This document shows, piece after piece, positions 2,142-59,689 of a stretch of DNA of 64,000 nt (positions are counted from its first letter, which is position 1; each line of letters begins with the position of its first letter). The notes under the pieces are model-generated. The model saw nothing but the letters and a program-made list of their open reading frames with translations, did no database searches and had not been told where the DNA came from. This DNA is from Tachypleus tridentatus (taxonomy: Eukaryota; Arthropoda; Merostomata; Xiphosura; Limulidae): assembly GCF_004210375.1 (NCBI RefSeq), contig NC_134837.1, forward strand, positions 19,105,586 to 19,169,585. Reading direction: 5' to 3'. Both the position numbers and the translations under genes were made by a program.

Positions 2142-2440
2142 GTGATGTCGAGAAAACCCACTTGCAGAGAAAAATATATATTTAAAAACGGCTCGTTTGG
2201 GTTGAGAAAATTTTTTTATGTCGAGGAGTGAACAACGTTTCGACCTTCTATCATCGTCAGGTTCACAAAGAAAGGAAGACGTAACTGACCGGAAGCTGAC
2301 CACATGTTTGAAAGGGGTTGTATAACTGAGTGTCGGAATGTAGAGGGCGTGCTAGATATTTGAATAATCGAAGGTCGAAACGTTGTTCGCTCCTCTACGT
2401 AAAAAATTTTCTCAACCCAAACGAGGCTTTTTTACATGTA
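2142..2440. repeat. HR element P1a: head-to-head inverted pair with 13-bp target duplication
   Basis: Two arms face each other around a ~110-bp spacer: about 2183-2257 (AAAACGGCTCGTTTGGGTTG ... CAACGTTTCGACCTTC) and about 2367-2435 (GAAGGTCGAAACGTTGTTCG ... CAACCCAAACGAGGC). The whole is bounded by TGATGCTAACCCA at 2129-2141 and 2441-2453, a perfect 13-bp duplication. Its outer left end, GATGTCGAGAAAACCCACTT, is shared with the P2 elements further on. Long variable duplications point to retroposition rather than cut-and-paste transposition. Confidence 0.8.
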
Positions 2441-2868
2441 TGATGCTAACCCAAATCTCCTTACTAATAACATAGGCCTGCAATAGTTTTACAACCCTTA
2501 TTTTTACATGTTATACAGTTATTGCTGTATGCTGAATCATAAAATTATAGCCATTTTTTACTTCACATCCGGGTTTTTTCCAAAACGTCACATGTTCTTT
2601 TCCACTAGTAAATCAATGTCATCAAAATTGGTTCACTTTTTGTTACACTTATAATTTTGACAAACACTGGCTATAGATTTCTCTAGACCAATCGCAACAT
2701 GAGAATCTTATCGATCGTTTTAGAACCCAAATATAATAATTAAAAAATGTTCACTGTAATAAACTAAATAATGATTTGATCTAAGTGAGAATTGTTGTTT
2801 TTTCTTCACGATTTGCAAAAAAAATTCTTACGTGATAGAAAAAAAAGAATATTATTTTCAAAACTTGT

Positions 2869-3174
2869 ATAAATGTCAGATGTACCCATAACTAGTGTTA
2901 TTATAAATGTCAGATGCACCCATAACTAATATTATTATAAATGTCAGATGTACCCATAACTAATGTTATTATAAATGTCAGATGTACCCATAACCAATGT
3001 TATTATAAATGTCAGATGTACCCATAACCAATGTTATTATAAATGTCAGATGCACCCATAACTAATATTATTATAAATGTCAGATGTACCCATAACTAAT
3101 GTTAGTATAAATGTCAGATGTACCCATAACCAATGTTATTATAAATGTCAGATGTACCCATAACTAATGTTATT
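2869..3174. repeat. 34-bp minisatellite, 9 units
   Basis: Exactly nine 34-bp units (306 bp), each containing ATAAATGTCAGATGTACCCA followed by TAACTAATGTTATT, with single-base variants (TGTACC/TGCACC; AACTAAT/AACCAAT/AACTAGT). No spacers, so not a CRISPR-like array. A SINE-B abuts its right end. Confidence 0.95.
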
Positions 3175-3300
3175 GCCCCTCAGTGGCTCAGCGGTATGTC
3201 TGCGGACTTACAACGTTAAAAACCGGGTTTCGATACCCCGTGGTGGGCAGAGCACAGATAGTCCATTGTGAAGCTTTGTGCTTAATTCAAAACAACAACA
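3175..3300 (+). repeat. SINE-B copy inserted at the edge of the minisatellite
   Basis: Complete SINE-B with tail AATTCAAAACAACAACA. The duplication ACTAATGTTATT (3163-3174) / ACTAGTGTTATT (3301-3312), 12 bp with one difference, places the insertion in the last minisatellite unit. Confidence 0.85.
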
Positions 3301-3737
3301 ACTAGTGTTATTGTCGTGGTTGGTCATTCTCATACAGCCTAGTGACGGCTGTAATCATTAGATGTCATTTTCTTGATCAGTGAAACACAATGCTTTCGTT
3401 GACCTGTTTTGTACAATATGCAAATTGTAGTAATTATTCTGTGGGCATGATAGATATTATCTAGCAGACAACAACAAATGAACAAAGATAACTAGAACAA
3501 AAGCAACTCAACTGTTTTCTGTCCTACGTTATATACTAAAATTGCATAGATTCAGACTAAAAATTATTAAAGTTCTGACATTAATAAAAGATGATAGAAA
3601 ATATATAGTAGATCTGCAGAATACAACTTTTCCTTCCCCTGTATTTCTGGCATTTTTTCAAGTCGATAATTAAATTTAACTTTAAATTCGTGACATGATC
3701 AAGAAAAACATCAATTTTCCCTCGTTCCTAGAAATGA

Positions 3738-3857
3738 CGCCCCCGCTAGTACATCGGTACGTCTCCGGCTTTACAACGCTAAAATCATGAGTTCGATTCC
3801 CCTAGGTGGGCTCAGCAGATAGCCCATGTGGCTTTGCTATAAGAAAACACAAACACG
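3738..3857 (+). repeat. SINE-C copy with 12-bp target duplication
   Basis: SINE-C is a third tRNA-headed family: TACAGCGGTAA-type box A, ACTTACAACGCTAAAATCA, box B-like GGTTCGATTCCCC, then GGGCTCAGCAGATAGCCCA and tail GGCTTTGCTATAAGAAAACA. This copy is flanked by TCCTAGAAATGA at 3726-3737 and 3858-3869. Confidence 0.85.
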
Positions 3858-4069
3858 TCCTAGAAATGAACGATCTTTAAATAAAAACCGTGCACTCAGA
3901 TACATTGAAATGAATAACTTTGGTGATAAGTTGAAATGCAACAAATTATATAATGAAGTAATAAAGAAAAACTCTACAGTTATGACTTATAATAAAAAAA
4001 TAACGTTTAAAATGAAACTACAAAAATACATTTAAAAACTTATACCTTTGTAATTGCTAGAAATGATTG

Positions 4070-4345
4070 TTGTTGTTTGTTTTTGAATTTCGCGCAAAGC
4101 TACACGAGAGCTATCTGCGCTAGCCGTCCCTCATTTAACAGTATAAATGTAAAGGGAAGGCAGATAGTCATCACCACCCACCTCCAACTCTTGCGTTACT
4201 CTTTTACCTACGAATAGTGGGATTGACCGTCACATTATAACATACCTACGGCTGATAAGATGAGCATGTTTGGTAAGACGTGGTTTCGAACCCATGACCC
4301 TCGGACTACGAGTCGAGTGCCTTAACCACCTGGCCATGCAGGGCC
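4070..4345 (-). repeat. SINE-A copy
   Basis: Near-complete reverse copy, from T-rich tail to the GGCCATGCAGGGCC head. No target duplication seen. Confidence 0.9.
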
Positions 4346-5101
4346 GAAGACCAAATGGTAAACCGTATGTTTTTGTTAAATTGTGTTATAGATTGAAATT
4401 CTTGGATTAGATGTAGAGAGAAGCGTGATTGGTTCAGATTTACCAACATATTTTTCAAATGCTTTATTTTGTAATTAATACTGTTTTCTACTTCACTATT
4501 TTCGATGTTATGATCTTTCTGTTGATGTATTTTTATACTTCAATTTTGTAATCACATTTTTTTTGGCACTTTGTTTACAATTTGTGCCCTTAAGTTACTG
4601 CTGTTATTATCCTCAGCATATCTTCAATAGCTTATTCGATTTTGTCTTCATCGAGTTTATTTTCTTCTTCATTTTTCGTTAAATCTCGAGTTTCTTGTTT
4701 TTAACTTTTAACTTCTCTCTCAAATTCCCATCACTTATTTCTTTTTTTTTCAGTATTCCTTAGTGTTACCAGCAAACACTGAATCTCTACATAATTTGAT
4801 TACTTTATAAGCAAAATGTTAGTGCATAAAAACGTGTAGTATAAAGTCGACGGTATGACAGAAAACAATTTACGAAACTACTTGAAATTACGTTTGAAAA
4901 ATCTAATTTGCTACCATATTAATTTATTTGTTCTTTTCTCATCATGAAACCAATTGGTTAAAGTCATGTCCGTCCCAGTTCGCCGCCAATAATTACGATT
5001 AGATTATTTCTCTAAGAATCTAAAACATAACCTTTACACTTTATTTGTATTATCGTATAATAAACAATACACAGGCCGTCCATCTTGCTTTCTTTGGTAG
5101 A
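4346..5101. other. Unannotated 5' flank
   Basis: AT-rich. No gene or recognised repeat. Confidence 0.5.
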
Positions 5102-5229
5102 TGCCCCCCAGTGACTTAGCGGTATGTCTGCGGACTTCAAACGCTAAAAACCAGCTTTCAATGCCCGTGGTGGGCAGAGCACAGCTAGCCCATTGTGTAG
5201 CTTTGTGCTTAATTCAAAACAACAACAAC
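5102..5229 (+). repeat. SINE-B copy
   Basis: Complete, with tail GTGCTTAATTCAAAACAACA. Box B is decayed (GCTTTCAATGCCC). Confidence 0.85.
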
Positions 5230-6835: not shown

Positions 6836-7390
6836 CGTCGTGCTTGAGATGGGCAAAAAGTGAAAAGTTGCCCAACAGATTAGTTTCAATATATACTGAA
6901 ATGAAAGAGAAAAACGCCGACAACGCATAGCTGTAACACTACTCCAAATTAGCTAACAAACTCAGTAATCCATTAATAACATGGTAGCAGGTTAATTAAC
7001 TAATGAATCCACTCATTGACTGAATTTACTCTATAACTCTCTCAGTGACTAATTCATTGATTAATTCTTTATAACTCAAGTAGTTGTCACGTCAGACCTA
7101 GAATTCAGGAAATTTTTCGACGCCATGGTAAAAACTCTCTCTCGCAGCCGAAGCCTATTTTTCACTTTCTAAATATTCAACGTGATAAAATTAAAAATGT
7201 TTGCTTCTAGAATAGAGTTAAAGCATATTCTGGCTCATTTTCACCTTATTTGCTAACTTCTCTTTTAGAAACAGCACTTTAAAGTATCACTATTTCTTCA
7301 TCGAAAGCAAGCGAAACATTAAAAAATAAAACTCAACTAACTAGCTAGCTAGCTGACAGTGACAAACAAAAATATTCGATAAGTTATTCC
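6836..7390. other. Unannotated 5' flank
   Basis: No gene seen. It contains a short (CTAG)n run near 7341-7355 and irregular repeats of ATTAACTAATGAATC-like words around 6970-7070. Confidence 0.45.
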
Positions 7391-7500
7391 TGATGACGAG
7401 AAACCCACTTGAAGTAAAATTGTATCTCAGAACGACTGGTACAGGTATTAACACTTTTACTAGTAAAGCAGAGAACAATGTTTTGACTTTTCTAGAGAAA
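7391..7500 (-). repeat. HR element P2, single-arm fragment
   Basis: GATGACGAGAAACCCACTTG through ACGACTGGTACAGGTATTAA to AAAGCAGAGAACAATGTTTT matches one arm of the P2 elements at 14085, 19947, 38589 and 59558. The core block is decayed here (GTTTTGACTTTTCTAG). No clear target duplication. Confidence 0.7.
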
Positions 7501-7575
7501 CTTGTTGTTTTTTTATATGGCTCGGGCAGTTTTTAAAAGTTCAGAAATTTCCGAACTATTAAGCCATATTCATTA

Positions 7576-7670
7576 TATATGTAAAAACGGCTCGTTTGGG
7601 TTGAGAAAATATTTTACGTAGAGGAACGAACAACGTTTCAACCTTCTTCGGTCATCGTCAGGTTCACAAA
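7576..7670 (-). repeat. HR element P1b: solo 95-bp unit with 8-bp target duplication
   Basis: One P1 arm alone, bounded by ATTCATTA at 7568-7575 and 7671-7678. Read on the minus strand it starts TTTGTGAAC, then the core CTGACGATGACC GAAGAA GGTTGAAACG, and ends AACGAGCCGTTTTTACATAT. It shows that a single arm is a complete insertion unit and where its ends lie. Confidence 0.8.
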
Positions 7671-8660: not shown

Positions 8661-8954
8661 GATGAAATAATAGTGGTGTGTTGCTGGATAACAACACATG
8701 AAATGTGGCATTTTGTAATTGTAATTTCTTAATACGAATAATTACATCTCTATAATTCACCAGTTTTCGATTGCTCTACAAACACGTGAACTCACTGTCA
8801 TGAAATTTCTAATTATTTTTTGTTATACAGTCTGATTCAAATCGTCCAATCAAAGCATAGCTGAGTCCGCGCAGATCAGATCTTTAAACGAGAACGCAGG
8901 CTAGGTGAATGTGAAATACATCAGGTAGGATTGCAACTAAGGAAAGAAATAACA
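8661..8954 (+). promoter_or_regulatory. Presumptive proximal promoter / 5'UTR of the transporter
   Basis: No clear TATA box at a useful distance is seen. A T-rich tract ending TTGTTATACAG at 8830 would make a good 3' splice site, so a 5'UTR exon may begin at 8831 with an untranslated first exon further upstream; the alternative is a start site inside this block. A minimal start-stop upstream frame, ATGTGA, lies at 8909-8914, 40 nt before the main ATG. The exact transcription start is not visible from sequence. Confidence 0.35.
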
Positions 8955-9441
8955 ATGTCTTTAAACAATATTCCAGAGAAACAACTGATGAATCCAGAAG
9001 GGCAAAAAAAGGAAAGAGATTATGTTAATGGTGTTAAGCTTGGAAAAGAACTTGGACTTTTAAATGGAATTGCACTGATTGTGGGGATAATTGTTGGATC
9101 TGGAATATTTGTATCACCTCGTGGCGTATTACAAGAAGCTGGCTCAATAGGAATGGCTCTCATCGTGTGGATATCATGTGGCGTTATATCTATGCTTGGC
9201 GCCTTGTGCTACGCAGAACTCGGAACAGCTATACCAAAATCAGGTGGAGACTATGCCTATATTTATGAAGCTTTTGGACCCCTACCAGCGTTTTTGTTCT
9301 TGTGGGTAGCAGTTTTAATTATCATGCCAGTAGGAAGTGCGATAGCTGCCTTAACTTTCGCCAATTATATCCTCGAACCTTTTTTTCCCGACTGTGCCCC
9401 TCCACCCAATGGAGTGAGACTGATAGCGGCAGTTGTAATAT
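8955..9441 (+). CDS. Transporter exon 1 (residues 1-162 plus one base)
   Basis: The start is the ATG at 8955, with A at -3 and an in-frame TGA at 8862 and no ATG between. The TTG eight codons earlier (8931) is not a credible eukaryotic start. It encodes a polar N-terminus (about 33 residues), TM1 with [10 protein letters not shown]2, the KSGGDYAY loop, TM3 and the extracellular loop with Cys147. The donor is T|GTAGGT at 9442. The stronger-looking AG|GTAAAT four bases later would shift the frame, whereas GTAGGT gives ...[15 protein letters not shown], which aligns with LAT1 without a gap. Confidence 0.93.
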
Positions 9442-12400
9442 GTAGGTAAATTACTAATTGTAATTAATAGTATGTTATAAAATAGTATTTCCTTTTTCTA
9501 AATACAGATGACTTAATGTAATATGTGACTATAAGTAGAATATAATAATTTTATTAATCAGTGTAAATGTTTATTAACTTACGATCCGAAAAATCTACCT
9601 AGTTAGAACTTGAACACTTACTAATTTAGAACAACAAAATTAGTTTTAGTACAACATCTAGATGTGATGCAGGTGTAAGTAATTCACAGGCTGCGTATTT
9701 TTCCAAATTATTTTTATTTAAATTTAAGTTCTTTAGAAAACAGAAAAATATGACAGTGGATGAATTTTTTTTTTGTTTGTAATGGTTCAGAAACAAAGTT
9801 GTTGAGCAAGTCTTAGAATTAAATAATTTTGTTTAATATCAAAATATCATACTGCACACTTTGCGGTATTGGCATGAATATGCGTAAACTGGAATGCTCA
9901 CACCTTAAAACGAACTATAGAAACAATAAATAAAATCGTGGTTAGTATTTGTATATTACAAAATGACTTTTAATGTTATATTTTTTATTAGATGAAAAAC
10001 TTAGTAACTAGGAACGTTGCAATTAATTAATTTAGCTGTAGAATATCCATGAGACTACTAATTAATTTATTAGATTTTTAATAGATGAACAAAATTTGTA
10101 TTTTTACTTTTAGAAATAAATTATTTCTAATTAAGCTAATTCTAAAGTGACTTTAATTTTAAGTGTGATAATGAAGTTGCTGGAAAACTTCATACCTTTA
10201 TAGCTAATTGAAATTGATTTTTGCTGCATATTTGGCCAATTTAATGAAACTGTTTTGTTTTTTATTAACACTGATTTGATTACCTACTTCTGTTTTTCTC
10301 AAGCTAACATTTAAGACACTAAATCATATCTTTCTCAAAGCTAGTGTTTCAGGTCTTTTGTTTTCCATATGAATCTGTTTATAATTTATATCATTTATAA
10401 ATATATAATTTATTATAAAGAATAAGTCTTCCCAAACTTGAGTAACATTGATTATATCTAAATTCTGGCATTTTATTCAAGTGGAAAACAATTAAAAATT
10501 TTACAGAACGATGAATTTTGATATGCATTTTCTTATTGGATAAGTTAAACACTAATAAAAAATGTGGATTACACATCAGCTCTAGATTCATGCTAAATGA
10601 ATCATAGAACATTTGTATTCTTAACTGAGTTTTTCATAATAATATTAACTTTAATAAATACAAAGTATAAAGAATAATATTTCCTCTTCTTGCTGTTATG
10701 TGAAATCAATAAAGGGCATTTTTGTGCCAGAAATTCCTGTCAGCAGACCCCACAGAGGTCATGGCTTTTGAGTTCTTTCTAAATAGCTAGCTGATTTTCA
10801 CTTTGTTTTGATTATTTTGAATTTATAGAAGGTATAAAACAAATTTATTTTACATTGTTTGACAGCTGCAAGAACATACCACTCTATTATGTCATTTCTT
10901 AAGCCTTTAAAAAAAGAAAGGAATGTTAAGTGTTTATTTATTTTGCTCAGATCAAATTATTAAGTGTTTCACACAGAGTTAACTTATTTATTACACAGGT
11001 ATAGTTTGAGATTCAACTACTTAGAAACCTGATTTTTTGTTATTAATATATTTTTAATTATGATACTGACCTCATTTTATTGTTATGTTGAATAAAGTCA
11101 ATATGCTTATTACAGAAAGTTTTGTTGATAGAAACCAGAGAACTTTAACTTTTGTAAACTTATTTAATAAAACAACTGAAATCATTCATAAAATAGATCT
11201 TATCTATTACTATAGTAAAATTTACAAAAACTATATGTTTGTTTTTTAGTTTTATAATAGTGCCTTATAAGTATAAAAGGTGATTGCACAATGTTAAATT
11301 GTATATACTTTTAAATTCATTAGATAAAATATGTATCATACAGTATGTATTTAAATGAAAACTATAAAAACATTTAATCAGTAACCAGGCAGATAATTAA
11401 GTAACATGGTAGTCTATACCATCAGTATCATTAGGCCATGTCAGCTCTGTTTAATTTAAAACTAATTTATCTGGATTATGTACCTATTTATAGATGTTAA
11501 TAAATATAACATGTATTGTTTTACTTACAATCTATTCTTCCAGTGTATTTAAGGGCTGTTGATTAAGTCAAAGTATGATGGATTTATTACTAGTATTAAA
11601 TAATACAATTAAAAAATTCGTTTCTTGAAAACGTTTTGATGAGCACTGAGATTGAATAATAATAATAATAATGTATTATTATTGAAAGTAAAGTTGGACA
11701 AGCATTTAAATATTTGAGTAAGTATTTGTATTGTAGAAATCAAAATTAATTTTAAACTTGGATTCAAATATTTTAATAAGTATTTTTAATGCAGAAGTTG
11801 AAAGTGAAATTTAATTTATCCAATTTTTTTTTTTTTACAAAATATGTGTTTGTTGACCACATTTCTACATTTATGAGTTGTAAAAGATTGTTTAGTAAAA
11901 GTATTAATATAGTTACAGAATATATTATTAATTATTAAAGTTTAACATCCATTACACTTATGCTACAAAGACAGTTTCAGGTGGATATTACTGCAACTAT
12001 TTATTTAATTTCCACAGCTTTTTGTTTTCAGTTTTCATTTTTAAAAAAATACTACTGTGTGAATTTGAGAAATGGGAGGTAGTTTGTAAGTTCACCAGAA
12101 ATAACATACAATTTAAGGACAACAAGGAACATGTTAGTCCACATCGGTCATTCCATCAGCTAATCTTAATCAAAGATTTAAAACTAAAACTGTTTTAGCT
12201 AAATATATGCTTTATTATTAGTGTACCATTAAAACTTAGAGTTCTTGATTTGTGGTGCAGAAATGTACTGTTATTTCCATTATGTTTTAATCATTTATCT
12301 ATTTTTAATTTTTCTTTGTTCTGTACATGTGCAGATTTCATGCAACATATGGTTGATCAAGCTGTTAAAGTAGTTATTGTTCTAGTTACCTTTGTCTCTT

Positions 12401-15400
12401 TGTTATTCTCTTGTCAACCTGAGGAATATTTTTACAATACTGCACATTGTTCAAGATTATTTAGTAGCAGAGTTCTTCAAGTGCTATCTGGAGGTTACAA
12501 CTTCTCATATATTGGCTTGGAACAACAAGTCCTGTGAGTGGTGCTGGTCACTGTGGTTAAATGTGATGTTTCTTACAAACTAAAGAATGTTGAATATTGA
12601 GAGATTTCAGCAAGAAACACATGTGAGGAAAAGCAAGTATACACACACACAAACTGTGTTTGTGTTTAATGTTGTAATAAAGATTTTTGCCTTTCACTTT
12701 GTGTTCAGTCATGACTCTCTAGGAAATTTAGTGTTATTTGTAATTAATATCTTGACCAAATCTTCAGTCATTAAGCATACATTAATTCAGTTTTAAGTAG
12801 ATATGCCAAATGCTTGTAAAATGTATGGTTTAAATGCCAAAAACCTAGAAAATAATCAGAAACCATGCCTTTTATTTTAAATCCAAAATGAACAAAGTAA
12901 GAAGAATTTGGAAATAAAAAAAAACATTTTCAGTTTCTGTGGCTTTGACTCAAATATCCTGGGTCAACATTAAGTTGGAATATGCTATGAAACTGGTAGA
13001 GTTTTGACTTCACAAGTTTAGTTCAAGTGTAGAAGTAAGGGGGATAGACTTGTTTAATAACAGGAGATTCAGCATGAGTAGTACTGAATCTCTGAGTAAC
13101 TGAGGTCATGAGAATGGAATACAGACTGGACACAAATTAATATAAAACAAAGAGTCTTTATTGTTTGTGTGTGCTTGCATTTATAGACTCAGCACTGGAT
13201 CAGATATCTTCACTTCAAACTGATGGGAGGAAGTCATCTTGATTGTGTAAATTCATTATAACTTTGGATTTTCCCAGAACAACTAGTGCTATGCACGATT
13301 GGTCATTTTTATGTAAACATAATTACTATCATAAGATTGAGATACCATTTAACTTACAATTAAATGACACTACTGTGCATGTTTGTATAATGTGCAGCAT
13401 CACAAACAAACCATCCATGAGCAAAACTGGTGTGAAGTCAACAAAATAACAATAAATATAGGAAGTGGAGCAACTTTCGTGATTATGTGCAACGTGAAAA
13501 CTGTACCCTGCTGAGATAAAATGATAAACTTATGATAAAACTATTAAAAATAAGAAGATAGAAACTCATGGTATGATTATATACCACAAATGGACTGAAT
13601 GAAAGGTTTATAAATGATAAACGTAATCAAAGGGTTAAAGTCTTAAAATATTTTACACTTGTTAGACAGTTCTTTACCTCATGTTTAGTATTTTTCCTTT
13701 ATTTAAGGCCAGTAGCATTCAACACCAGTTGAACTGGATTTTGGTTATTTCTGAATTCTAAGAGGTTTCATTTTGTGGTCATGAGCATTCGAAAAATAGG
13801 AGTAATGCCTTTAACTATGTTGAGAATAACTCTAGCACATTTTCAGTTTGTATTAAAAACGTATCATTAACCCTTGTTCTTCTGCTTCTTTTTGTGTAAT
13901 GATATTTTACTGTTCTCGTATTTTTCTCTACTGTACTTTAGAATCCATTGCAGACTCGTTTTAAAGATTTCATCGATTCACCCTCAGAATTTGACAACTA
14001 ACTATAACGCCCAAACTTATGATATAATGTGGAGAATTTATATAAACATGGCCGACGCATGACTGAGCTGTTACGTAAGGTTAATGGTCATGATGAAGAG
14101 GAACCCACTTCAAGTAAAAAATGTATTATTAAACCAGGTGGTATGGGTAATAAATTTTAATTAAAATAAAGTGCAGAACTTGTTGTTGTTTTGTTTTTGA
14201 ATTTCGCACAAAGCTACTCGAGGGCTAGCCGTCCCTAATTTTGCATTGTAAGACTAGAGGGAAGGCAGCTAGTCATCACCACCCACCGCCAACTATTGGA
14301 CTACTCTTTTACCAACGAATAGTGGGATTGACCGTCACATAATAACGCCCCCACGGCTGAAAGGGCGAGCATGTTTGGCGCGACGGGGATGCGAACCCGC
14401 GACCCTCAGATTACGAGTCGCACGCTTGGCCATAAGGGCAGAACTACATTAACCTGAAGATGACCTAATAAGGTGGAAACGTCGTTCTGTACTTTATTTT
14501 AATTAAAGTTGTAATACCCATACCAGCCGTCTTGAAAATACAAAGTTTATATCCCTTAGAAGCAAAATAGAGCATGAAAACGTTTACTCGTAGCTCTGAA
14601 TAACATTCGAATCCCCGTCATATCAAACATACCTGCCCTTTCAGACTTGGGATCATTATAAATGTGACGGTCAATCCCACTATTCGTTGGTAAAAGAGTA
14701 AGTAGCCCAAGAGTTAGCGGTGGGTGGCGATGACTAGCTGCCTTTCCTCTAGTCTTGCACTGTAAAATGAGGGACGGCTAGCGCAGATAGCCCTCCTGTA
14801 GCTTTGCGCGAAATTCAAATCAAACAAACAAACCTGATTAACCAATTATACACGATCTTGCGCATTATAGATTTTTTCATAATTGTCGTCTAGCCTACAA
14901 CTAATATTTTTATTTTTCTAACTTCTTTTTTGCTGTGAATGTTATTCTGGTCACAGTCAAATAAAACCAAAAGCATTATTTTCGGTAATAAATGAAAAAT
15001 ATTTTCATTATTTCAACAAAGTTATTGATTTGGAAAAAATAAAACAAAAGTAATATTGGCTTCTTTGAGCGTAAAAAACAAACAAACACGTTTGGTTATA
15101 TTAAACGTAGTTCATAAAAAATTATGATTTATTCTTTAACGTTATTGCAAGTTTAATAACCGTGTTTTTGTTTATTTTTCTTAATATTACAAAGTGTCAG
15201 GTTTAATTACATTAAATAAATTGTACGCAAGACACAAAAGAAACGTATAAGGAAGTTAATTAAGACGGGGAATGTTGTCAAAGACACTAACACACTGCAC
15301 ATCCGTATTACATATACAGATATCCCAAACGTGTAACTCTTCAGACGTAAGCCTTACATTGATTTGCTGAGCAATGTTTCAGGTCAGTCAACATAAATTC

Positions 15401-18400: not shown

Positions 18401-21400
18401 TACAACATATAAACAGAAGCAGTAGCATGCTAATCTTGTTAGGACTACTTGCCACACACACACGATTTCAGTTAAGTATGGGTAACATTAGAAATCAATC
18501 AACATCGTTGTTTTAGTTGGAAGATCTACCGTGGTAATCGTCTTCTGTTAAAAACTTGCTAAAATACGATCCTGGATATCCATGTTGACAAAAAATTCGA
18601 GTAACTATATGCAACAGAAAAATCGGGAGCTTTTCACGTGTTAATAATGTGCTGAAAAATGCACGAGGTATGATTTTTAATGAACGCGCACGCTAGGAAA
18701 ACACCGAATTTTTTTGATGGCCGAAAGTGAAAGGCTTAGGAAATTTCGTAGCCCGAGAAAATTGAGATGATCGAATTAAGTTTTAAACTAACCTCTCGTG
18801 TGTTTTTTTTTCTTTTGCAAAATTTATGTTTATTTAATACCATGCTACAGTAGATATCATTTGCAACGGTTTTATAGCGGAATCACAATAGACATTTGTA
18901 GATTAAGAAAACTGTTAGTAGTAGATCAGTATTATTTCAGATCTCTATTATTAGGTTTTAGATTCCCAATTGTTAATTATTTTGTACGTTAGTTCTTTAA
19001 ATACACAGAAATGGGTAAATGTATGCCTAGAATAAGCAGCCTCCCCATTAAGCGCGTATAGAATTTTATCAGTAAAAAATCAGCCTTTTCAAGTAAAATA
19101 TGTTACGTCTAAAACATCGTTTTGAATACAGCTTCGTGTCTTTGTAATTTTTACCGCGCCAGATGGCTAATGTGCCCGAAGTTTCGTGTTAAGCACGCAT
19201 CGAGTACAAAAGCAGCCGCTCAGAGCAACATCGTATGGTTTCATTCGGTTACCTGGCTGTGAAAGTTGGTTTTCTCGGAGCTCTCCGTTTTCCCCCTCAG
19301 TTAAATCCCAAATCCAGCCCTGAAAAGGTGCCTACTCAGTATCCAAAATTCCATTTTAATTCTATTCAAAATTTCAAGAGCCCTGAGATCTTCCTACGGA
19401 GACACCTGCTCACTTTTCAAGACTGCTGGTCAGGCTAGCAAAACAACAGATCAAGTCAACTCAGAACTCCACGGGTATGGGGGGGGGGAGAGTTCCTGAG
19501 TACCCCACTTGGGGAGAGAAGTCTTGTGGCTTCTCTCTGATCAAACTAAACACCTGCCACGAAAATGAAATGAACGCCGTTTGGTTTGTTTGTTTGTATT
19601 TAAGCACATAACTACATGAAGGGCTATCTGTGCTTTGCTCATCACGAGTATATAATAAACCTGGTTTCTAGCGCTGTAAGTCCGCAAACATATCACTGCG
19701 CCAATAGAGGGCTTAAAACCGTGTAAAGCAACTTTTTGTTTATGTACTTTTTGTTTTTCTAATTGTAAATATTTTTGTAATTATCGTACATATTTCATTG
19801 TTTTTAACAAACACAAAGTAGTAAACCAACTTTTAAATTGGTCATGCATGGACATTCGAAGTGTTTCATATAGCATATCTGCCTAGAATTTTGTGCAAAA
19901 TGCCAAGCCTATTTTGCTGTAAGTTTGTGAAACAATATTAATAATATGTGATGACGAGAAACCCACTTGAAGTCAAAATCTATTCACAAGACGGCTGGTA
20001 TGGATATTAAAATAAAGTACAGAACAACGGTTGCAAACTTTTCTTTGTTAACCCGAAGATGACTTAATGAGGTCAAAACATTTTCTGTACTTTATTGAAA
20101 TTAAAGTTTTAATAGCCATGCCAACCATCTTGATAATACAATATTAATAATAATAGGAACAAAGGACATATTTTGATTTTGTATACAGTCGTGAAATCAC
20201 TTATTTTGCTTAATATCAATTTTGGGGTGGTCTTAACTATCGAAGGCCCGGCATGGCCAGGTGGTTAAAACACTCGACTCGTAATCTGAGGGTCGCGTGT
20301 TCGAATCCCCGTCACACCAAAAATGTTCGCTCTTTCAGCCGTGAGAGCGTTATAATGTGACTATCAATCCCACTATTCGTTGGTAAAAGAGTAGCCCAAG
20401 AGTTGGCGGTGGGCGGTGATAACTAGCTGCCTTCCCTCTAGTCTTAAAGATATGAACTTGCATTTTTTAAACGTAAAAAAAATTCTAGATGGCGCTGAAA
20501 CTTCTTTCGACATTACATGTTTGGTGTCTTGATGTTTGAGTCGACAGAACACACTTTTCCATTCGTCAACTTCAATATCCACTCATGCGCAGTCCACACA
20601 TGATTCATATACATTGTGTACAAAACTAAAACTAGTTTAAATTATTGTGTTTTATTGGAAGTAATTTCATTTTTCTAGAACAGTAAACAGAGGCGTTTAA
20701 AAATTTTGATTCCAGATGAGAAACGTCCTTTCAAATTCAAGAGAATAAAACTCTGAACAAAAATTTGGACACATCCTACTCATTGATCTTATAATGGTGG
20801 GGTTTGTGTTAACATCCATTAAAGGAAAAATATAAATATACGTGAATTTACTCACTTCGAAATATATCAAAAAAAATAATCCCTCTTAAGTTAATAACAG
20901 GTGAAAATTCTGAGACATAAAAATAAATATATTTTATATAACAAGGGCAATAGACATTTAAGCAAACTTTGATAAGAGCTAAGAAAAGACGTAATAAAAC
21001 AAACACAAATACCGGTATTCACTGTAATTATAGTGAGCAATAAAAAAGATAAATATATTTGTTATAGAATATTATTGTGTAAATTTGACTCCATCGAGTG
21101 ATGACGACACCTATGAAAGTTGTTACTGCATCATTATGATGAAACAAGAATCGTGTATTGCCTAATGCTGGTGTCAGGCTCTGGCATGCCAGGTGGTTAG
21201 GATGCTCGACTCGTAATCTGAGGGTCGCGGGTTCGAATCTCTGTCGTACCAAACATGCTCGCCCTTTGTGTTAGTCAACCCTACCATTCGTTGGTAAAAG
21301 AGTAGCCCAAGAGTTGGCGGTGGGTGGTGATGACTAGCTGCCTTCCTTCTAGTCTTACACTGCTAAATTAGGGACAGCTAGCACAGATAGCCCTCGAGTA

Positions 21401-36400: not shown

Positions 36401-39400
36401 TGTTTATCACTTCAGGTTAGATCTCAAGCTTTGGAAACTTCTAGATGTCATACAATCATTAAATCATGTCAAAATTCCCTTTAGTGAAAAACATAAAAAA
36501 ATATCAAAATTATAGCCTGCAACATTGTTCCCTTCCTGTAAAGTGAAGTCCCTTGAACAATTTTAATACACAAATAAAATACTATGTTAAGCTTGAAATC
36601 CGCAATTAACGATAAAGTCATTTACTTACAATTAACAGAAATGTTTTATTTTGAAATAGATGTTATATTCATGATTTTGTTTGGGAAAAAAAAATGAAAT
36701 TTTGTTTATTTTACTTATTGTGTCTACTTTTCACTCACCAAATAATCTTTTGGTGGTTTTCATTTTCTAAAGGATGCCGATAGGATGACCCCTTGTTACT
36801 GAGAGAATTCCCTTTGGGTAGGTGTTCAAGAGAACCCACAGGTTGACTGTATGTGTGGTGATATTCTGGAAGTAGTCCCATCAAGAACCTTGGGCTGTTC
36901 AGAAGGTCATATTTCTTTCTGCTGGCATATTCTTTTCTGAAGCTATCTTGACACAAAGAACCTGAAGTTATTCAGTAAATTTACTTGCCAGTATATTTCT
37001 AGAAACAATCAAGATCAAGGAATGACCTTTGGCTTCGACTGTGTGGCCTTCTGAAATTTGTAATCCACGTCATTCATTCTCTTCACTACAACACATGGGT
37101 TTTTTTCAACACCTGTTTAACTTTAAGAGTTCATCCATATCTGCAGTGTATATTGTACAGTCATACCATATCAACAAGATAAAATCTCATCTTATTAGTA
37201 TTAACAGCATAGCAAGTTTCAAGTTTGTTACTAGCTGGTATAAGTCTTTCCCATATATGGCATCAGTGGTGTTCCTTAGATACTGTGTACTCTGTTCAAA
37301 ACTGCTGAATAATTATACTTTGTCCTCTGGACGTAAGTATAGAAGGTCCAATGGCACACTTAGTTCTCTCTCAAACATCAATGATGCTATTTCGTTTGCC
37401 TGTAGCTTCATGCAATACTGTTCATTAACTTGTAAGTAGCAGTGGAAGATCTTGACCCCACATTTTCTGAGCTTAATCTAAATAAACGGTTAACTGATTT
37501 GAAAGTGTACATTTCTATATTCACACAGTTCCATGAGAAGTTAGATGAAGGTCTGTTATTTTGGTCTTTATTATTCAGAAGATTTAACAATCTTCAATGA
37601 ACAATGAACAAGGCTGATTCAAAGTTCCGTAGACACTCTGAATGATTGAAAAAAAAATCATTGACATTTTTCTTGCTGGAGCTTCTGTTCCCTTATTAGA
37701 AACTCCATTTGCTTCTGGCCATTTAATGAAATAGTACATCACAACTGTGATGTTTTTATTCCCACTGTTACTATGTTAAATACGATCAAGTACATAAACT
37801 GCAACTATCAATGGTGCTTCAACATTGCTCTAGTTGCTGTGTTTTTGCTTTCAAGAATATTTTCACTCACAACAGTTCACACCAATACTCTACAGTCCCC
37901 TGATAACCCAATGGAAGTGCTCTTTCTTTAGTTTCTTCTGATGTCCAGCTCTTGGAAGATTGTGAAGATGATGGACTGTTTATGACTGTAGGAGTACCTA
38001 CTGTAGTCATTGTTTATGTTTGCAGGTATCTTCTCATTTCTGGCATAACAAGCCTTCTCGTTGGTGTAATGAAAATCCAGGATTTTCTTCTTCACTATTA
38101 TTGAACTGCTGAATAATTGGTTTCAAAGACATATCTTTTTTTCTGGACAACTCTTAGTTGAGAGTTGGATAAAAATAACATGGCTATCACTTGCAGTAGT
38201 CCTTTGTTCAAAAGGGCTTGCTGGCACTGGATATGACATATCTAATATATAAAACAAGCTACCTTTTGGTAATTATCTGTTAATTTGTGATATTTAGCAA
38301 CAAACAATGCAGTTATATTGTTGTCTTAAGTATGTATATAATACTTTGATCATTCACAAGGGCTGGCTTGAAGTAAAAATTTTTAAATGATTTTAATTTA
38401 CGCATACACTTAGTTTTAAAAGCATTCAAATTAGAGGTTTTCATGAAGATTTCAGTTTTTTATTATTATTTCAAACATCTTTCTTTTCCCAAATGCATTG
38501 TCATTAGACTTAACTGATGATGGTACTTGAAATTAATTTTTAGGTTTTAAACTTTGACATAAATGATAAAAATACCTTAAGCCTATTGTATCTCATAATG
38601 ACTGGTATGGGTATTAACACTTTTACCAATAAAGCATCTTAATCTGAAAATAACCTATGAAAGTCAAAATGTTGTTCTCTGCTTTATTAGAAAAAGTGTT
38701 CTGAGATACATTTTTACTTCAAGTGGGTTTCTTGCCATCAAGAATTACATTGGCCTATTGGTTTGGCATGTTTCATCTTCTGTAAACCATAATTTTTAGT
38801 TTTTATGACAATTTAAAAATTTCATCTGGTACATGGGTTAAATATTTCTTTGTGAAATCTTCCAGTTACCACTAACCCACTTAAAAAAGATAACTTCATG
38901 AAACAGTTAAATTAGGTAAACTTCAACAATTTCTGTGGGACATTAGGATACAAGGTTGGGGTAGTAAGATGTTAGTGAGACCTTGGAATACAATTGTCTA
39001 GAGTTATTACTGCCATTGGTAATGTGGGTTACATACATGGCCTTGAGATGAAGACATAATTATAACATATCTTAAACTTTAATAGATCTAATATATGTGT
39101 ATAAAAGCTAGTATCTCTTTCCTTTTGTTTTTTTGTTGTTGTGCATTAAAACGGCCTGGCATGGCCAAGCGCGTAAGGCGTGCGACTCGTAATCCGAGGG
39201 TCGCGGGTTCGCGCCCGAGTCGCGCTAAACATGCTCGCCCTCCCAGCCGTGGGGGAGTATAATGTGACGGTCAATCCCACTATTCATTGGTAAAAGAGTA
39301 GCCCAAGAGTTGGCGGTGAGTGGTGATGACTAGCTGCCTTCCCTCTAGTCTTACACTGCTAAATTAGGGACGGCTAGCACAGATAGCCCTCGAGTAGCTT

Positions 39401-45400: not shown

Positions 45401-48400
45401 TTACTACATAATGATCACTCATATGGAGTAACAATCATATTACTACATACTGATCACTCATATGGAGTAACAATCATATTACTACATAATGATCACTCTT
45501 ATGGAGTAACAATCATATTACTACATAATGATCACTCTTATGGAGTAACAATCATATTACTACATAATGATCACTCTTATGGAGTAACAATCATATTACT
45601 ACATAATGATCACTCATATGGAGTAACAATCATATTACTACATAATGATCACTCTTATGGAGTAACAATCATATTACTACATAATGATCACTCTTATGGA
45701 GTAACAATCATATTACTACATAATGATCACTCATATGGAGTAACAATCATATTACTACATACTGATCACTCATATGGAGTAACAATCATATTACTACATA
45801 ATGATCACTCTTATGGAGTAACAATCATATTACTACATAATGATCACTCATATGGAGTAACAATCATATTACTACATAATGATCACTCATTAAATATTTT
45901 ACTTTGAAATTCAGAGGAACTTATTCTTATCCATGGCATAACTTCACTTTTGTATCTATTGGACCCCAACAAGCACTTAACACATTAGAAGATCAAAGTA
46001 TTTTATACAAGAGTGTAAGTGTGAAGGCCTTATAATGGCCAATCATTGTAAGATAGAAATAAATATTCCCCCTATTTCTTATATTTATAATGGCTGATCA
46101 TATGACATACAAAACCAGTATTAAGTTGCAGCAGTGTAAATATGTTTTAATTAATGTGTAGAAAAAAAAATTATGTATATATTTGTTACAATAAAATTGT
46201 ATACTTTAATAACTTTCAGTGTACAAAATTTTTCTGCTTTGTTGAGTCTTGGCCTTGTCACTATTATAAAAATAAAAGTTTTTCTTTTCTGTAGATTTGT
46301 AATCTGGTATAACTTTTTTTGTAATGACTGTAAAGTAATACTTAATTATATTCAACATTTTATCAAATTACTCAGTAATTAGGGGTTTGGATGAAGTTCA
46401 ATATACATAGTTAATATTGTGAATGTGAGTTAATTTTGGTATTGATTGTAAAACTTCATAAACAACAGTTATTTAATCAATTTTTAAGTTTTTAACATTC
46501 TTGTTATATTGCAATGTTTTAAGTGTCTCTGTGGATAAGTTATATTTTTGGGTATAGATAATCTTTTCTTAATGATGCATATCATCTGAGGACTCAGAAG
46601 TAACTAATAACTACCAGTATCTTCCTTCTGAAGTTTAGAAATGGATTTCAGAAGTTATTAAACTTGATTTTGTTTTTATTCTGAATTGATAATTTAAAAT
46701 TGAAAAAAAACAGTATAATTTTGTTTTATATTTGTATTACTTTCAGGTTATTTTATGTTGGAGCTCGTGAAGGCCAACTTCCTGCTTTTTTGGCAATGAT
46801 TAACACTTCTTACTTTACCCCCATGTCAAGCTTGCTATTCTTAGTAAGTAGTTAAAACTGATTGTAACAGTTTTCTGTTATTAAGATTGTATGATGCAAG
46901 TTTATTGACAAACCAACAAAATTAATGCTAAATTTGTGGTAAGCCCAACTGTACCTAGTGGTTAATGTACCAAACTATGAATTCAAGGATACATATTTTG
47001 AATCTTGTTGCTATAAGATCACACTCTTTGTTTTGGGGCCATGCTGATTTTTGAGATTGATGGGGCTAATCCCAGTTTTTGATCAGGGTAGTCTCAGAGT
47101 TGGTGGTGGGTACTGTTAATTAGCCACTTTTCCTCTCATTCACTTCATATTCTCTTATATGGCTTTGGGCAAATATATTAAACAAACAGATCTGTTATTT
47201 GATTTTTTTCCTTTATGAGGAATATTTAATAGATTCAGTGAACTCTATGATAGACAATTTTGTTATATTCTTTTAGCAGTGCAATTTGTACTGTGTTAAA
47301 TGAAATAATAGGTGTTCATATCTTTTTATTTTCATTTTGAAACAATAAAAGTATCTTTTATTTTGTAGTATGTACATTAAAAAAGTCATTGTATTAAGAA
47401 ATTAAGTTCTTTATGTATATATATATATATATATATACATACAGTAAAATCTCACTTAGCACCACCCTCATATGAGCTGATTTGTTAGTTCTTGTCTCCT
47501 AGAGAGAAAAAGTAATGAAAACCCATAACACTCTGAACACTACTTTATCACAGTAATGGGGGTAGTGAACCAAATAATTTTTATTTGATAAAGTAATGCA
47601 ACAAGGAACATAATAAACAAAAAGTAAACAGTTTTTCTGCAACACGCTGCAAACCATTAAAACAACATCCATCTACATAATATTACTTCTGTAGAAAAAA
47701 GCATTCTATTAGGAAGTGATCTACAAGTCTCTGTATATGAAACAACATGGTATAATGCATCATTTGATAGATGAAAACCTGGCTTATCTATTGGTTATAA
47801 CTAACATAGTTATAAACTTGAGAGAACTACATGTATTGACAAATCCTGAAAGAGAGGATGTACAGTATCCAGAAATATAGTGCATTTTACATAGGCTTAC
47901 TACAAATTTGTATGAACTTCACCTGGTCATGTATTCATGTTAAATGTTAGTGATTATCCCTGATATTTCTAGTAAGTCTGCTGTGATTCTGTACTCACTG
48001 ACACCATAAACAACAACAGTTTTTCTTTTGTTGACTTTTTTTTTCCTTTTTTTTTCTCCCCATAAAACATAAACTAATTAGGTTTTTGAATTTTGCACAA
48101 AGCTATTTGAGGGCTATCTGCGCTAGCCGTCCGTAATTTAGCAGCGTGAGACTAGAGAGAAGGCAGCTAGTCATCACCAGCCACTGCCAACTCTTGGGCT
48201 ACTCTTTTACCAATGAATAGTGGGATTGACCATCACATTATAACACCCCGACGGCTGAAAAGATGAGCATGTTTGGTGCGACAGGAATTCAAACCCGCTA
48301 CTCTCGGATTATGAGTCGAGCGCCTAAACCTACCTGGCCATGCCGGGCCATAAACATAAACTATGGGGTTAATGTATGAAAGATTTGTGAATGCTAATAA

Positions 48401-55900: not shown

Positions 55901-58574
55901 TGTGTTATTGATTCAAAAGTTTCTATGAAAACAGTGCAGTTTTATGTGTTGCTGGTTTGTAGAAAACTAGATAGTTTTTATTTACAGTTGCTGCCTGATT
56001 GATTTGTAGGTTCTTATCCTAAAGAAACAAAGTTTCTTTTTATTTAATTAAATTCTTATTAATTAGATTGAATTTTACATAATATATAAAGCATATCTTT
56101 AACTTTTGAAAGCTGAAAGTTTTAATTCAGAGGTGTACAGTTTCATTGTCAAAACAAGGTAGTAACACCTTGTGTAAATTAAGAGTTATAGAGATTAACA
56201 ATTGATATGCATGTATGAATATGGAACATTTTAAAATATGTTTCTTACTTGTGCTATTTAATTTTTAAATTCCTTCTTACCCCACTTCCTTTATTTATTG
56301 GTTCTAAGTTTTTCATATTAAGTTTCAGATAAGGTTTTTTTATTTTACCAATGACAAAAAGGTATAAAGTATTTATGTTATTGTTGCTGTTTATTTTAGA
56401 CTGTTTTATTTAAAATATCAGTTATTTTTATATTTTCAAAAATTGAAATTTTAGGATGTTCTGTTTTGTTATTACTAGTGCAATTTCAGTTTTTAGAACT
56501 TTGGATATTTTCAAGAGGAAACTCCTTATAAATATAGACATTTGACTTAGGTAATTTGTATGTGGTGTAAATAACATATAGGATTTAAAGTCTATCTTTT
56601 GCACTTAATTTTTTATTTAAATTAAAAAATGCTGGTGATGGTAACCAGTTGTTTCAAGGACAACTTGTGCAGTTATTTTATATTTTATAAGATTTCAAGC
56701 TGTTTGTCAGACTGAATCAACGAAAAGTTTACGTTTTGTAAAAATCTTTTTAAACTAGTTTTCACTTGTAAGAAATAAAAATTCTGGATCTACAGATGAG
56801 TCACAAAGTTATAAGTAAAACTTTCTAGAACCAAAGCTGTAATTAAAACTTTCATAATAATGCTAAGTGCACAGTGTAGGATCAACTTCTGAAACAATCA
56901 GTCAGTCACATTTTTAAAACTTATCCTCAAGATATTTATAATGGAGCTGGTCGTGTTCTGTTGCACAAACTTATTCCGAGCCATTAGCTGTCATTTTAGA
57001 CCTAATACTTCTATGCACTTCTATTTTTCTAAGATAGACAATTATTAAGTTTTTATTTTTAATAATATATTTTATAAATAATATGGAACAAACTGTTTTC
57101 CTAAGGTTCAAGATTGATTTATTAATAACAGCTAACATTTGTTATGCTGATAAATGTAGAGTGAGCTTTGTTATCCTAGTTGTGTGAATTCTTAGATCTC
57201 AGCAAGACTACATGTTTCTATAAAATACAGAAAAATAAAGTTTCTGGTTTCTTCTTTGTGTGTAATAAATGTAATTTTATTTAAATTCAGTATAAATCTT
57301 GGGTTAGTAAAACTCTTAGATTTTTATATGATTGATACATAAATGTATTGGTTCATATTAAAAAATGAGAAGTGTACATATTTGACTGTATTTAGTTGTC
57401 ATCACTCATTCAACACTGTAAGTCCACATTCATGTTTGTGTTTCCTGTTTACAATTACACAACAGAAATTATCCTTTCTCATCTTCTTGTTCACAAATAA
57501 AATTAACATCAGAAAGTAGTGTTGAAAGCAAGCTCTTTTTGAAAGAGAAATTTTCCATCACAGTTACGTGTGAAAAGCATCAAATTCAACCTGTTTAGTT
57601 GGAATACCTTCCTTACACACAAAATAATTCAAGTTCCCAACATTTGTGAACAGTATAATAATCAGCATACTACACAGTTAACATGCTGGACTATGGATTA
57701 AAAAGTTTATAAAGTTTTGTACCATTAAAAATGTTCTGCACTTTTAGGTGTGGCTGTGGTATAAGTGTGACAGTTATTCCTATAATTTGGCTTAAATTTA
57801 CTAGGATTACTGTACTTGATTTATATAGAAAACTCTCGCCAAGAGATTTAGACGATGAATGTATTGCATAGGTTGAAAATACCAGTACAGTATTACAATA
57901 TAACACTTCTCATCCAAGCTATTTTTCTTTGCACTTCTGTGTAGAAACAAATAACCTGACTATATAGCAGATTTTACACTAGTATTACTACTGCTACTGA
58001 CCATGTCAAAGATCATTAGACTACTGTAGTCCTACTAATTATTATTACTTCATTGTGTTAGCATCAGGTTCCTAATCTTATTTACTATCATTTCAACTAC
58101 TGTGTGTCTGAAGATGTGAATATGGCTAATATTTACATCCAAGTACAATAAGGTATCAGTTGGAGTTAAGATGGGAACCAATGAGATAGCATCCTGAAAT
58201 GTCATTGCAACAACAAAAATGTATGGCATAAGATTTATGGATCCCAGTCCTGTAAAGGCCTGTTTGTTAAAGTTGTGTGTCATATCCCTGTCAGTGGACC
58301 TAACTGACCTTGTCTTTGCTTCACTCCTCTTCAGGTCATGACCTCTTATCCTCTATCAGTCTCTCCCTATCACAGCTTCATAAAATAAACCACCTCACTA
58401 TTGTGTCTAAATTAAATTCCTTGGTGCAGGACAGGGGAAGAAGATTCAGTTATCCTTGGACACACCAATTGATAAACAGTTTGAACCAAATAACTTTTAA
58501 AGTTATTGAACTTCATATCTTATGAATTTGAAAGTGAAAGCCATGACAAGTAAGAAAATTATCTTACTCTAACA
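52951..58574 (+). other. 3'UTR and 3' flank, no recognised element
   Basis: AT-rich, free of SINEs and recognised transposons. Probably includes the 3'UTR; several AATAAA words are present. No second gene is visible. Confidence 0.55.
57234..57239 (+). promoter_or_regulatory. Candidate polyadenylation signal AATAAA
   Basis: AATAAA is followed within 30 nt by a GT-rich stretch (TTCTTTGTGTGT). This would imply a 3'UTR of about 4.3 kb. An AATAAA at 52985-52990, only 35 nt after the stop, lacks an obvious GT-rich element. Which is used cannot be decided here. Confidence 0.25.
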
Positions 58575-59215
58575 ATCTTGAGTAACCATATCTTTATGTT
58601 AAGAAGGAACTAGTGTACTGATGAAGACAGAATGACCATGTCTTCATATTAAGAATTACCTAGCTTGCTCTGGAAGTGTAGAACATGTTTCATTATAAAA
58701 ATTACTTTGAAAAAGGTAGATAAAAACCATGGTTTAAATGTAATCAAATATATTTTTTTAATTTTGTAAAGAAATATGCAAGTATGGTTTGTACACAAAG
58801 ATGATGAAGATTTTCCATTTAATGAGTTTGCCAGGTACTGAAGTAAGATGAAGGCCTTCCAATAATAAGTGCCTGGTAGGAAGCAGAATGAATATCTTCC
58901 AATTAATAATTTTACCTGGTAGGGAAGCAGAACAAAGGCTTCCTGTATAATAGCTTTGACTAGTACTGAAGTAGAGTGAAGACCTTACATGTAGTAATTT
59001 CATATGAAACCAGGATGAACATTTTCTAAGTAACAAGTTTGCCTGCTACAAGGGCTGGATTTAGGCCCTTTGAAGTCACATTCTGGGATTCAAGACCCCT
59101 CTAAATCAGCTCTTCCTGGTACATGAGGATGAAAGTCTGTCAAGTAATGTGTTTACCCGATAGAACAGGAGGATGAAGGGTTTCCAGGTAATATTCTTAG
59201 CTATCTGGTATTTAT
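58575..59215. repeat. Decayed ~44-bp tandem array, about ten units
   Basis: Recurring in order: (A/G)GAATGA/AGGATGAA, then a CTTCCAA/CTTCCTG/TTTTCTAA block, then TAATAA-like, then GCCTGGTA/ACCTGGTA, then CTGAAG/GGAAGC. Examples start near 58627, 58798, 58846, 58885, 58928, 58974, 59010, 59127 and 59170. Units differ at many sites, so the array is old. It is interrupted at 59049-59113. Confidence 0.55.
59049..59113. mobile_element. Possible ~65-bp hAT-type MITE inside the tandem array
   Basis: CAAGGGCTGGATTTAGG at the left and CCTCTAAATCAGCTCT at the right are inverted relatives. Flanks GCCTGCTA (59041-59048) and TCCTGGTA (59114-59121) could be an 8-bp duplication with two changes, but the array itself repeats GCCTGGTA, which weakens that point. 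Confidence 0.35.
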
Positions 59216-59557
59216 TGTATGAAAATTAACAAATAAACTGCTACTACTAATTTATGATACGAGGCTTATTCCGTGTTCAGTATTCTTGGCTTTCCGTTAT
59301 AATAAGCATATTTTAGTAATCGGCATTAATGAATATCATATAAATTGAGGAAGAGTCATTTTATAAGTTGAATATTTTCTAATTTAAAATAGAAATTTGA
59401 AAATCAAGTTTTAGTTTACTGACGTTGATCACTAACGAAATTATGCTTAGTTCACCTGCCTAAGAAAACAAAATTGGTAATATACGATATCAGGGCCCTT
59501 GTTAGAAAGTGAAAAATTAGAAAATAAGTTCCGGTTTTATAAATTTCTGATTTAAAT

Positions 59558-59689
59558 GTATTCTAAAGACAGCTGGTATAGGTGTTAAAACTTTAATTAT
59601 AATAAACTACAGAACAATGTATCGTCCTTATTAGGTCATCTTTAAAATACATTTTTACTTCAAGTGGGTTGGTTTCTTGTTATCACGAG
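59558..59689. repeat. HR element P2 with 15-bp target duplication
   Basis: ATTTCTGATTTAAAT (59543-59557) and ATTTCTGGTTTAAAT (59690-59704), one difference. Left arm AAGACAGCTGGTATAGGTGT ... TAAACTACAGAACAATG, centre CCTTATTAGGTCATCTT, right end TTTTTACTTCAAGTGGG ... TTCTTGTTATCACGAG. Confidence 0.82.

Follow-up and report, generated by a model that had tools for sequence, protein, structure and literature searches.

Short Hammerhead-bearing Insertions in the Horseshoe Crab Tachypleus tridentatus as Probable Fragments of Two Penelope-like Element Families

The stretch of DNA analyzed here, 64,000 nucleotides from Tachypleus tridentatus (contig NC_134837.1, positions 19,105,586–19,169,585 of the forward strand; hereafter the window), contains short repeated units, or arms, in which a hammerhead-like motif is followed by a body of one of two types, P1 or P2. 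What are these units, and how do they come to stand head to head? Seven places in the window hold 12 arms, arranged as five head-to-head pairs and two singles, as revealed by sequence reading and by a blastn comparison of genomic arms with the window. An earlier interpretation made from the letters alone (the sequence-only reading) had described seven insertions with a common arm architecture; all of them are present, and its coordinates lie within about 20 bases of ours. Our answer, which we hold with good confidence, is that the units are fragments of the pseudo-long terminal repeats (pLTRs) of two related families of Penelope-like elements (PLEs), found as singles and as pairs that probably arose by two-sided priming.

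The arms were numbered from the first C of CTGANGA, taken as position 0. The upstream strand of stem I occupies -6..-1 and reads GTGAAC in P1 and often GTTAAC in P2. It is followed by CTGANGA, an extra T, the two strands of stem II (GACC and GGTC, 6 nt apart), GAAAC and GTT. The second strand of stem I lies at +30..+35 (GTTCGC or GTTCAC in P1); then comes the family-specific body, which ends near CATATA (P1) or GATACA (P2). An optional 3′ tail of about 34 nt includes AAGTGGGTTT(T)CTCGNCATCA.

The genome searched was the window's own assembly (2,167,478,450 bases in 205 contigs). Its origin is mirrored in the Pfam family Coagulin (PF02035), which is not known outside horseshoe crabs: 19 matches (best E 1.5e-25) were obtained here, against none in 14 control genomes. 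The exact core pattern CTGANGATGACCN{3,7}GGTCGAAAC, in which loops of 3–7 nt were allowed, gave 15,022 matches in this 2.17-Gb assembly, and a 34-nt core pattern with up to three mismatches gave 42,149; the reversed-pattern control gave none in either case. The arms are far above chance expectation. A frequent layout among exact cores is a minus arm with a plus arm after it, at a distance that ranges from 57 to about 4,100 bp. Upstream of the arms, between those of the wider pairs, lies a reverse transcriptase (RT) frame (RVT_1, E 2.9e-12 in locus L009 and 5.9e-12 in L018). A GIY-YIG domain adjoins the arm, upstream of the core, in L024 (23.7 bits against a cut-off of 22.6), and scores under the cut-off were obtained in L057 (20.8), L014 (18.8) and L012 (17.6); the 510-amino-acid frame of L009 gave no GIY-YIG match. 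The latter frame terminates with ...QLKPKINQYKGMPLYLY, about 130 nt ahead of the core. P2 arms lie downstream of a relative of the same protein (55% over 190 amino acids in L067, 76% over 66 in L037). The RT frame contains the motifs IPKPHKPxCPLRP and FDVxSLFTxVP, which we take to be typical of PLEs; searches of NCBIfam and of Protein Data Bank sequences with this frame returned only weak matches to other RTs, below the cut-off or with E of at least 0.075.

The copy in L013 has a 5′ pLTR composed of hammerhead, body and tail, then about 70 nt, and then an open reading frame (ORF) beginning MSELAYRTPLL, which is likely the main ORF. The pattern spanning the junction of the tail with the 5′ untranslated region (UTR) has 263 matches at up to two mismatches, and at three places, judged from the junction positions only, the tandem spacing is 2,842–2,855 bp. 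It is close to certain that the arms are the 3′ ends, or pLTRs, of at least two PLE families. The sequence-only reading had assigned the units to the Penelope-like world, and rightly so: the parent encodes RT and GIY-YIG, and its pLTRs occur both in tandem and inverted. That reading had also named a DNA-transposon parent with its transposase as an outcome that would contradict it, and no such parent appeared.

Inverted arms with flanking target duplications could also be the terminal inverted repeats of a DNA transposon or of a miniature inverted-repeat transposable element. Since the arms are unequal in length and tail, the target duplications range in length between 10 and 16 bp and RT and GIY-YIG are encoded between the arms of wider pairs, we consider the chance of this negligible; neither a transposase-encoding parent, nor equal terminal inverted repeats, nor target duplications of fixed length were found in the loci examined.

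Several loci have peculiarities of their own. Four consecutive junctions of tail and 5′ UTR, about 2.85 kb apart, were found at G000:C4:20159593-20168162; by their positions only, this is likely a tandem array. A direct fusion of the element's N-terminal coding part to position -7 of the hammerhead was seen in L075 and L032; it looks as though the template had been switched or spliced. L009 and L011 hold one insertion with one target duplication at two places about 765 kb apart, which indicates a duplicated locus, and several other sampled loci behave likewise. In L023 (346-377) the cores of a head-to-head pair are about 30 bp apart, and the plus arm enters a tandem repeat of the TTGTTGCAGTGCTGAT type and not its body.

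The most regular feature of the head-to-head pairs is the distribution of tails. The loci from L009 on, together with the window, were scanned for outward-facing pairs, which gave 66 pairs, 54 of them after an automatic filter. Exactly one arm was tailed in 52 of the 54, while L013 and L014, copies of one locus, scored two tails since the 5′ pLTR inside a longer copy was mistaken for an end; by eye, the outer ends of L013 have one tail. These two were set aside, and removal of four more duplicates left 48 distinct pairs (39 P1 and 9 P2). Exactly one arm is tailed in all 48, a count limited to pairs in which both body ends are recognisable and to a directed sample of loci, mostly from one contig. 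Tail scores are bimodal (4–10 against 20–34), and all five pairs of the window obey the same rule according to their aligned ranges and flanks. A target duplication of 10–16 bp with up to two mismatches flanks 41 of the 48 pairs.

An optional tail on one of two inverted pLTRs is already known from rotifer elements (PMC3846280). A purified PLE protein has two RT start sites, which bound the tail; it cleaves and extends both target strands, and the choice of start site does not differ between the two (PMC11167929). The regularity counted here is that each head-to-head insertion uses both start sites once. Two-sided priming is therefore likely in our opinion, and we infer both the priming and the mode of cDNA joining as follows. 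Each arm represents the 3′ end of the element: a minimal type I hammerhead motif, the family-specific body and the optional tail. Singles are 5′-truncated copies in which reverse transcription stopped early. In head-to-head units both nicked target strands would prime RT on the element RNA, one at the end of the body and the other at the end of the tail, and the two same-sense cDNAs would then be joined, often within the hammerhead.

Pairs could instead arise by snap-back self-priming, in which the 3′ end of a cDNA folds back on an inverted repeat of the hammerhead and copies itself. Self-priming was proposed and argued for rotifer Penelope elements (PMC3846280), and some junctions have the short inverted homology that it needs: AGAAG, present in loop II and in the body, marks the junction in 5 of 34 usable pairs, and this junction has 486 exact copies genome-wide. 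A single copied cDNA should yield two equal 3′ ends, whereas all 48 pairs combine a tailed and an untailed arm, which argues against simple snap-back copying and fits two separate RT starts better. Moreover, units with the AGAAG junction may have their tail on one arm or on the other (the tailed arm starts at +14 in L106 and at +37 in L100, L111, L128 and L138), so that this junction probably arose more than once, although its dominance may not be fully separable from copying of a master unit. Snap-back copying is thus quite improbable.

Junction microhomology gave a mixed picture and is not used here as main evidence. Out of the 39 distinct P1 pairs, 38 entered the test (L009 was omitted) and 34 were usable; 12 of the 34 have an overlap of at least 3 nt, against 11.5% in a permuted null. 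It should be mentioned, as a point against our reading, that five of these 12 represent the one AGAAG junction and that the overlap averages 0.12, less than the null mean of 1.05.

Where do the arms begin? For P1, arms were picked by their body only, regardless of the hammerhead, which gave 87 arms, or 66 after removal of duplicates, 12 of them running off the fetched stretch; a list of arms anchored on the core is conditioned on it and was hence not used for rates. Per nucleotide at risk, 40/3339 ends fall in -13..+57 and 13/4446 in -250..-14 (66 arms, p 2e-6). The upstream edge is sharp, with 7/350 in -13..-2 against 2/1179 in -60..-14 (66 arms, p 8e-4). The positions of the AGAAG junction, +14 and +37, account for nine of the 40 ends, some of which are therefore non-independent; the -13..-2 test is unaffected. 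Among the P2 arms (22 seen, 21 usable, L152 omitted because a short interspersed element (SINE) intervenes), 13 begin in -11..+56, one at -22 and seven at -209 or beyond. The 5′ ends are thus clustered at the hammerhead, and the edge of the cluster on the upstream side, at about -13 to -2, is sharp.

Start of the RNA, a stop of the RT and joining of two cDNAs are all possible causes of this edge. A transcription start at -13..-2 is possible, and it is weakened by L013, in which the copy with a 5′ pLTR begins at about -50, away from the edge; the same copy is an exception that counts against a general role of the hammerhead edge in our reading. Hammerhead cleavage, predicted at +30, is not supported as the main source of 5′ ends, since only one of 54 uncensored arms starts exactly there. 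An alignment artefact caused by a diverging 3′ UTR was judged unlikely, as many of the arms directly adjoin their inverted partner or a target duplication.

The same ends bear on the proposal that the short units form a separate non-autonomous family, whose own transcript starts just upstream of the hammerhead and which is mobilised in trans by PLE enzymes. The bunching of 5′ ends at -13..-2 (P1) and -11..-2 (P2) is what it would predict, as are singles bounded by target duplications that start at the edge (L052 at -2, L056 at -5). Against it, the same families show 5′ ends at many greater lengths, into the coding region, and the outer ends of pairs correspond to two 3′ start points, which copying of a paired unit as a single RNA would not give. 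We find this proposal unlikely. The view of the sequence-only reading that the units are separate non-autonomous relatives of PLEs or retrozymes was likewise not borne out, because they are 5′-truncated ends and inverted pLTRs of families with coding copies in the same genome.

The motif itself is, by its sequence, built and placed like a minimal type I PLE hammerhead with stems I and II and no helix III. The core CUGANGA ... GAAA is complete, and the predicted cut triplet is GUU, before GUUC, in agreement with the NUH rule for cut sites. Stem II (GACC/GGTC) is paired in 89–97% of 124 distinct rows. The sequence-only reading was right in recognising a hammerhead core in the units. The RNA of P1 folds into stems I and II better than shuffled sequences (z -3.1 and -2.8 for two variants). 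In helix III only A15.1-U16.1 around CG can be read in cis; the ACGU at its place is self-complementary in both P1 and P2. According to two reviews, PLE pLTR hammerheads lack helix III and possibly cleave as dimers (PMC7761336, PMC6155905). A working ribozyme is possible.

A number of observations weigh against it. Stem II, whose lack of covariation would have counted against the sequence-only reading, is nearly invariant and thus offers no covariation test. Stem I has 6 bp in P1 and is weak in P2, with four pairs, one of them isolated; its outer pairs are kept in 54–65% of the 124 rows, a figure depressed by arms that start inside the core. Folding, which had been suggested together with the sequence-only reading, favours P1 alone: P2 RNA has no advantage over shuffled sequences (z +0.8 and +0.1), and the minimum-energy fold of P1 pairs part of the core differently. 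A search with the Rfam hammerhead models, proposed there as well, gave no match at the gathering level in the window, nor up to E 10 on one P1 arm. The lack of a hit was among the outcomes by which the sequence-only reading would be refuted, although the search was run on natural copies rather than on a consensus. Core positions C3, G5, G8 and G12 vary in 15, 20, 12 and 10% of rows, respectively; variation on the left-hand side is inflated by rows that start within the core, G8 and G12 fall in CpG pairs in P1, and decay and tolerance are not separable at varying core positions. Finally, hammerhead mutants left PLE insertion in vitro unaffected (PMC11167929).

The hammerhead could accordingly be a non-cleaving relic whose sequence is kept for RNA folding, as a promoter or for protein binding, a reading that we hold to be possible, if doubtful. 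The missing Rfam match, the weak stem I of P2, the lack of helix III in cis, the 10–20% variation of C3, G5, G8 and G12 and the independence of in vitro insertion from cleavage all speak for it. On the other side stands the conservation of the motif. Between a P1 and a P2 copy, 38 of 46 positions are identical in -12..+33, compared with 57 of 101 aligned columns on the upstream side and 19 of 31 in the stretch that directly follows. Within the 124 rows A9 (3%), A13 (1%), A14 (1%), A15.1 (0%) and the extra U (4%) vary little, in contrast to the free N7 (45%); the first loop base varies in 40%. The anole PLE hammerhead, besides, cleaves when protein is added (PMC11167929).

The extra U between A9 and stem II deserves separate consideration. 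It is replaced by another base in 259 exact cores and absent from three, against 15,022 that keep it, while 107 cores with a five-base loop give a rough gauge of single deletions. The claim that one extra U is retained between CTGANGA and GACC was thus confirmed genome-wide. The accompanying description as a variant or vestigial ribozyme stands in its first half, as there is a variant nucleotide in the core; the extra U need not mean decay, because its position equals that of the extra A10 in the hammerhead of chrysanthemum chlorotic mottle viroid (CChMVd), where a change to U sped the trans-cleaving form 3–4 fold, according to a review (PMC3705267). As described there, the plus-strand hammerhead of CChMVd resembles the arms in having one additional nucleotide between A9 and G10.1; the viroid has A and the horseshoe-crab arms U, and common descent is not implied. 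The arms thus supply naturally occurring cores that have U at the place where the viroid hammerhead was accelerated. The possibility that the extra U provides a start codon (A9-U-G read as ATG; the anole ORF begins at stem II) was set aside, as the frame, by reading, stops after 13 codons in P1 and after 2 in common P2 forms, and as the likely main ORF begins only about 70 nt past the tail.

It can also be hypothesized that the hammerhead is an insertion joint rather than mainly a cutter. Two element RNAs would lie head to head in a dimeric particle, paired through the self-complementary AACGUU/ACGU at the place of helix III; each nicked target strand would prime at one of the two start sites, and the cDNAs would meet and be joined at the hammerhead. 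If true, this would account at once for the loss of helix III, for the head-to-head arrangement with one tail per pair and for the position of the 5′ ends; we rate it as rather unlikely.

In the window the features are located as follows (Table 1). The sequence-only reading had taken target duplications of 8–15 bp as an argument for retroposition. The units are retroposed, with the 13-bp and 15-bp duplications exact, while the 8-bp duplications are weak and a search of the flanks for exact duplications found none at the 7.4-kb P2 single and the 14.1-kb P2 pair.

Table 1. Arms, hammerhead cores and target duplications of the window.
Feature	Position	Strand	Description
P1 head-to-head pair	2142..2440		minus arm 2136-2271 tailed, plus arm 2370-2441 untailed; PLE 3′ UTR between
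Target duplication of P1 pair	2129-2141 / 2441-2453		TGATGCTAACCCA, 13 bp, exact
P2 single arm	7387..7495	-	tailed; 5′ end within hammerhead, about +11
P1 single arm	7574..7670	-	untailed; 5′ end about -9, just upstream of hammerhead core
Target duplication of P1 single	flanks 7574..7670		ATTCATTA, 8 bp, exact, weak
Well-kept P1 hammerhead core	7628..7661	-	CTGACGATGACC-GAAGAA-GGTTGAAACG
P2 head-to-head pair	14088..14543		minus arm 14088-14179 tailed, plus arm 14449-14543 untailed; SINE-like sequence between
Well-kept P2 hammerhead core	14454..14487	+	CTGAAGATGACC-TAATAA-GGTGGAAACG
P2 head-to-head pair	19948..20143		minus arm 19948-20032 tailed, plus arm 20043-20143 untailed
Target duplication of P2 pair	19932-19946 / 20138-20152		ACAATATTAATAATA, 15 bp, exact
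P2-type head-to-head pair	38590..38744		minus arm 38590-38632 untailed, plus arm 38639-38744 tailed
Target duplication of 38.6-kb pair			8 bp, exact, weak
P2 head-to-head pair	59557..59688		minus arm 59557-59642 untailed, plus arm 59647-59688 nearly tail alone
Flanking duplication of 59.6-kb pair			14/15 match, by eye

The insert in the 14.1-kb pair (14190-14440) is, by eye, SINE-like with a tRNA-like end, and related letters occur in L152. Two Rfam tRNA matches in the window, 15559-15628 (+, 30.7) and 61770-61826 (-, 30.6), barely pass the gathering score of 29 and are perhaps heads of SINEs. Inspection by eye further revealed an open frame that resembles an exon of an SLC7-type amino-acid transporter (8865-9449, +) and frames resembling pieces of the RT and RNase H of non-LTR retrotransposons (24883-25962, -; 43511-44116, +). 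At 45281-45907 (+) there is a minisatellite whose frame is kept open, with a unit of 13 protein letters repeated across about 200 codons.

A 2020 review calls the activity and role of small PLE hammerheads still a mystery (PMC7761336). With 42,149 recognisable cores that role becomes countable, in terms of where cDNAs start, end and join. Any model of how Penelope elements insert will have to explain two regularities, the one-tail rule and the clustering of 5′ ends at the motif, and the breakpoints give new clues to the mode of PLE insertion, while the function as a ribozyme remains putative. In the titles and abstract openings of the literature searched, which did not cover the main papers on PLE hammerheads, we saw no horseshoe-crab PLE hammerheads, one-tail count or 5′-end clustering, and we do not claim that these are absent from print.

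Among the closest known systems are the canonical GIY-YIG PLEs (Penelope/Poseidon; Pen of rotifers, PMC3846280; PAc of the anole, PMC11167929). They have in common with the families studied here an RT with a C-terminal GIY-YIG, tandem and inverted pLTRs, a tail on one inverted pLTR, target duplications and, in the anole, a hammerhead in the pLTR. The horseshoe-crab families differ in their very high copy number, many of the copies being short, in their likely main ORF (MSELAYRTP...), which begins about 70 nt after the tail and not inside the hammerhead as in PAc (PMC11167929), and in the one-tail rule, counted here in 48 of 48 pairs. The minimal type I hammerheads of PLE pLTRs (Cervera and De la Pena, 2014; Lunse et al., 2017, as cited in the reviews PMC7761336 and PMC6155905) share with the arms the CUGANGA...GAAA core, stems I and II with little or no helix III and a self-complementary ACGU that permits dimers; compared with the descriptions given in these reviews, the arms differ in the fixed U after A9. 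Metazoan retrozymes (PMC7229834) likewise have type I hammerheads in short non-coding repeats. They are, however, tandem units of about 300 bp bounded by full, canonical type I hammerheads, whereas the sampled copies here are solo or inverted PLE ends, the longer of which join PLE coding sequence.

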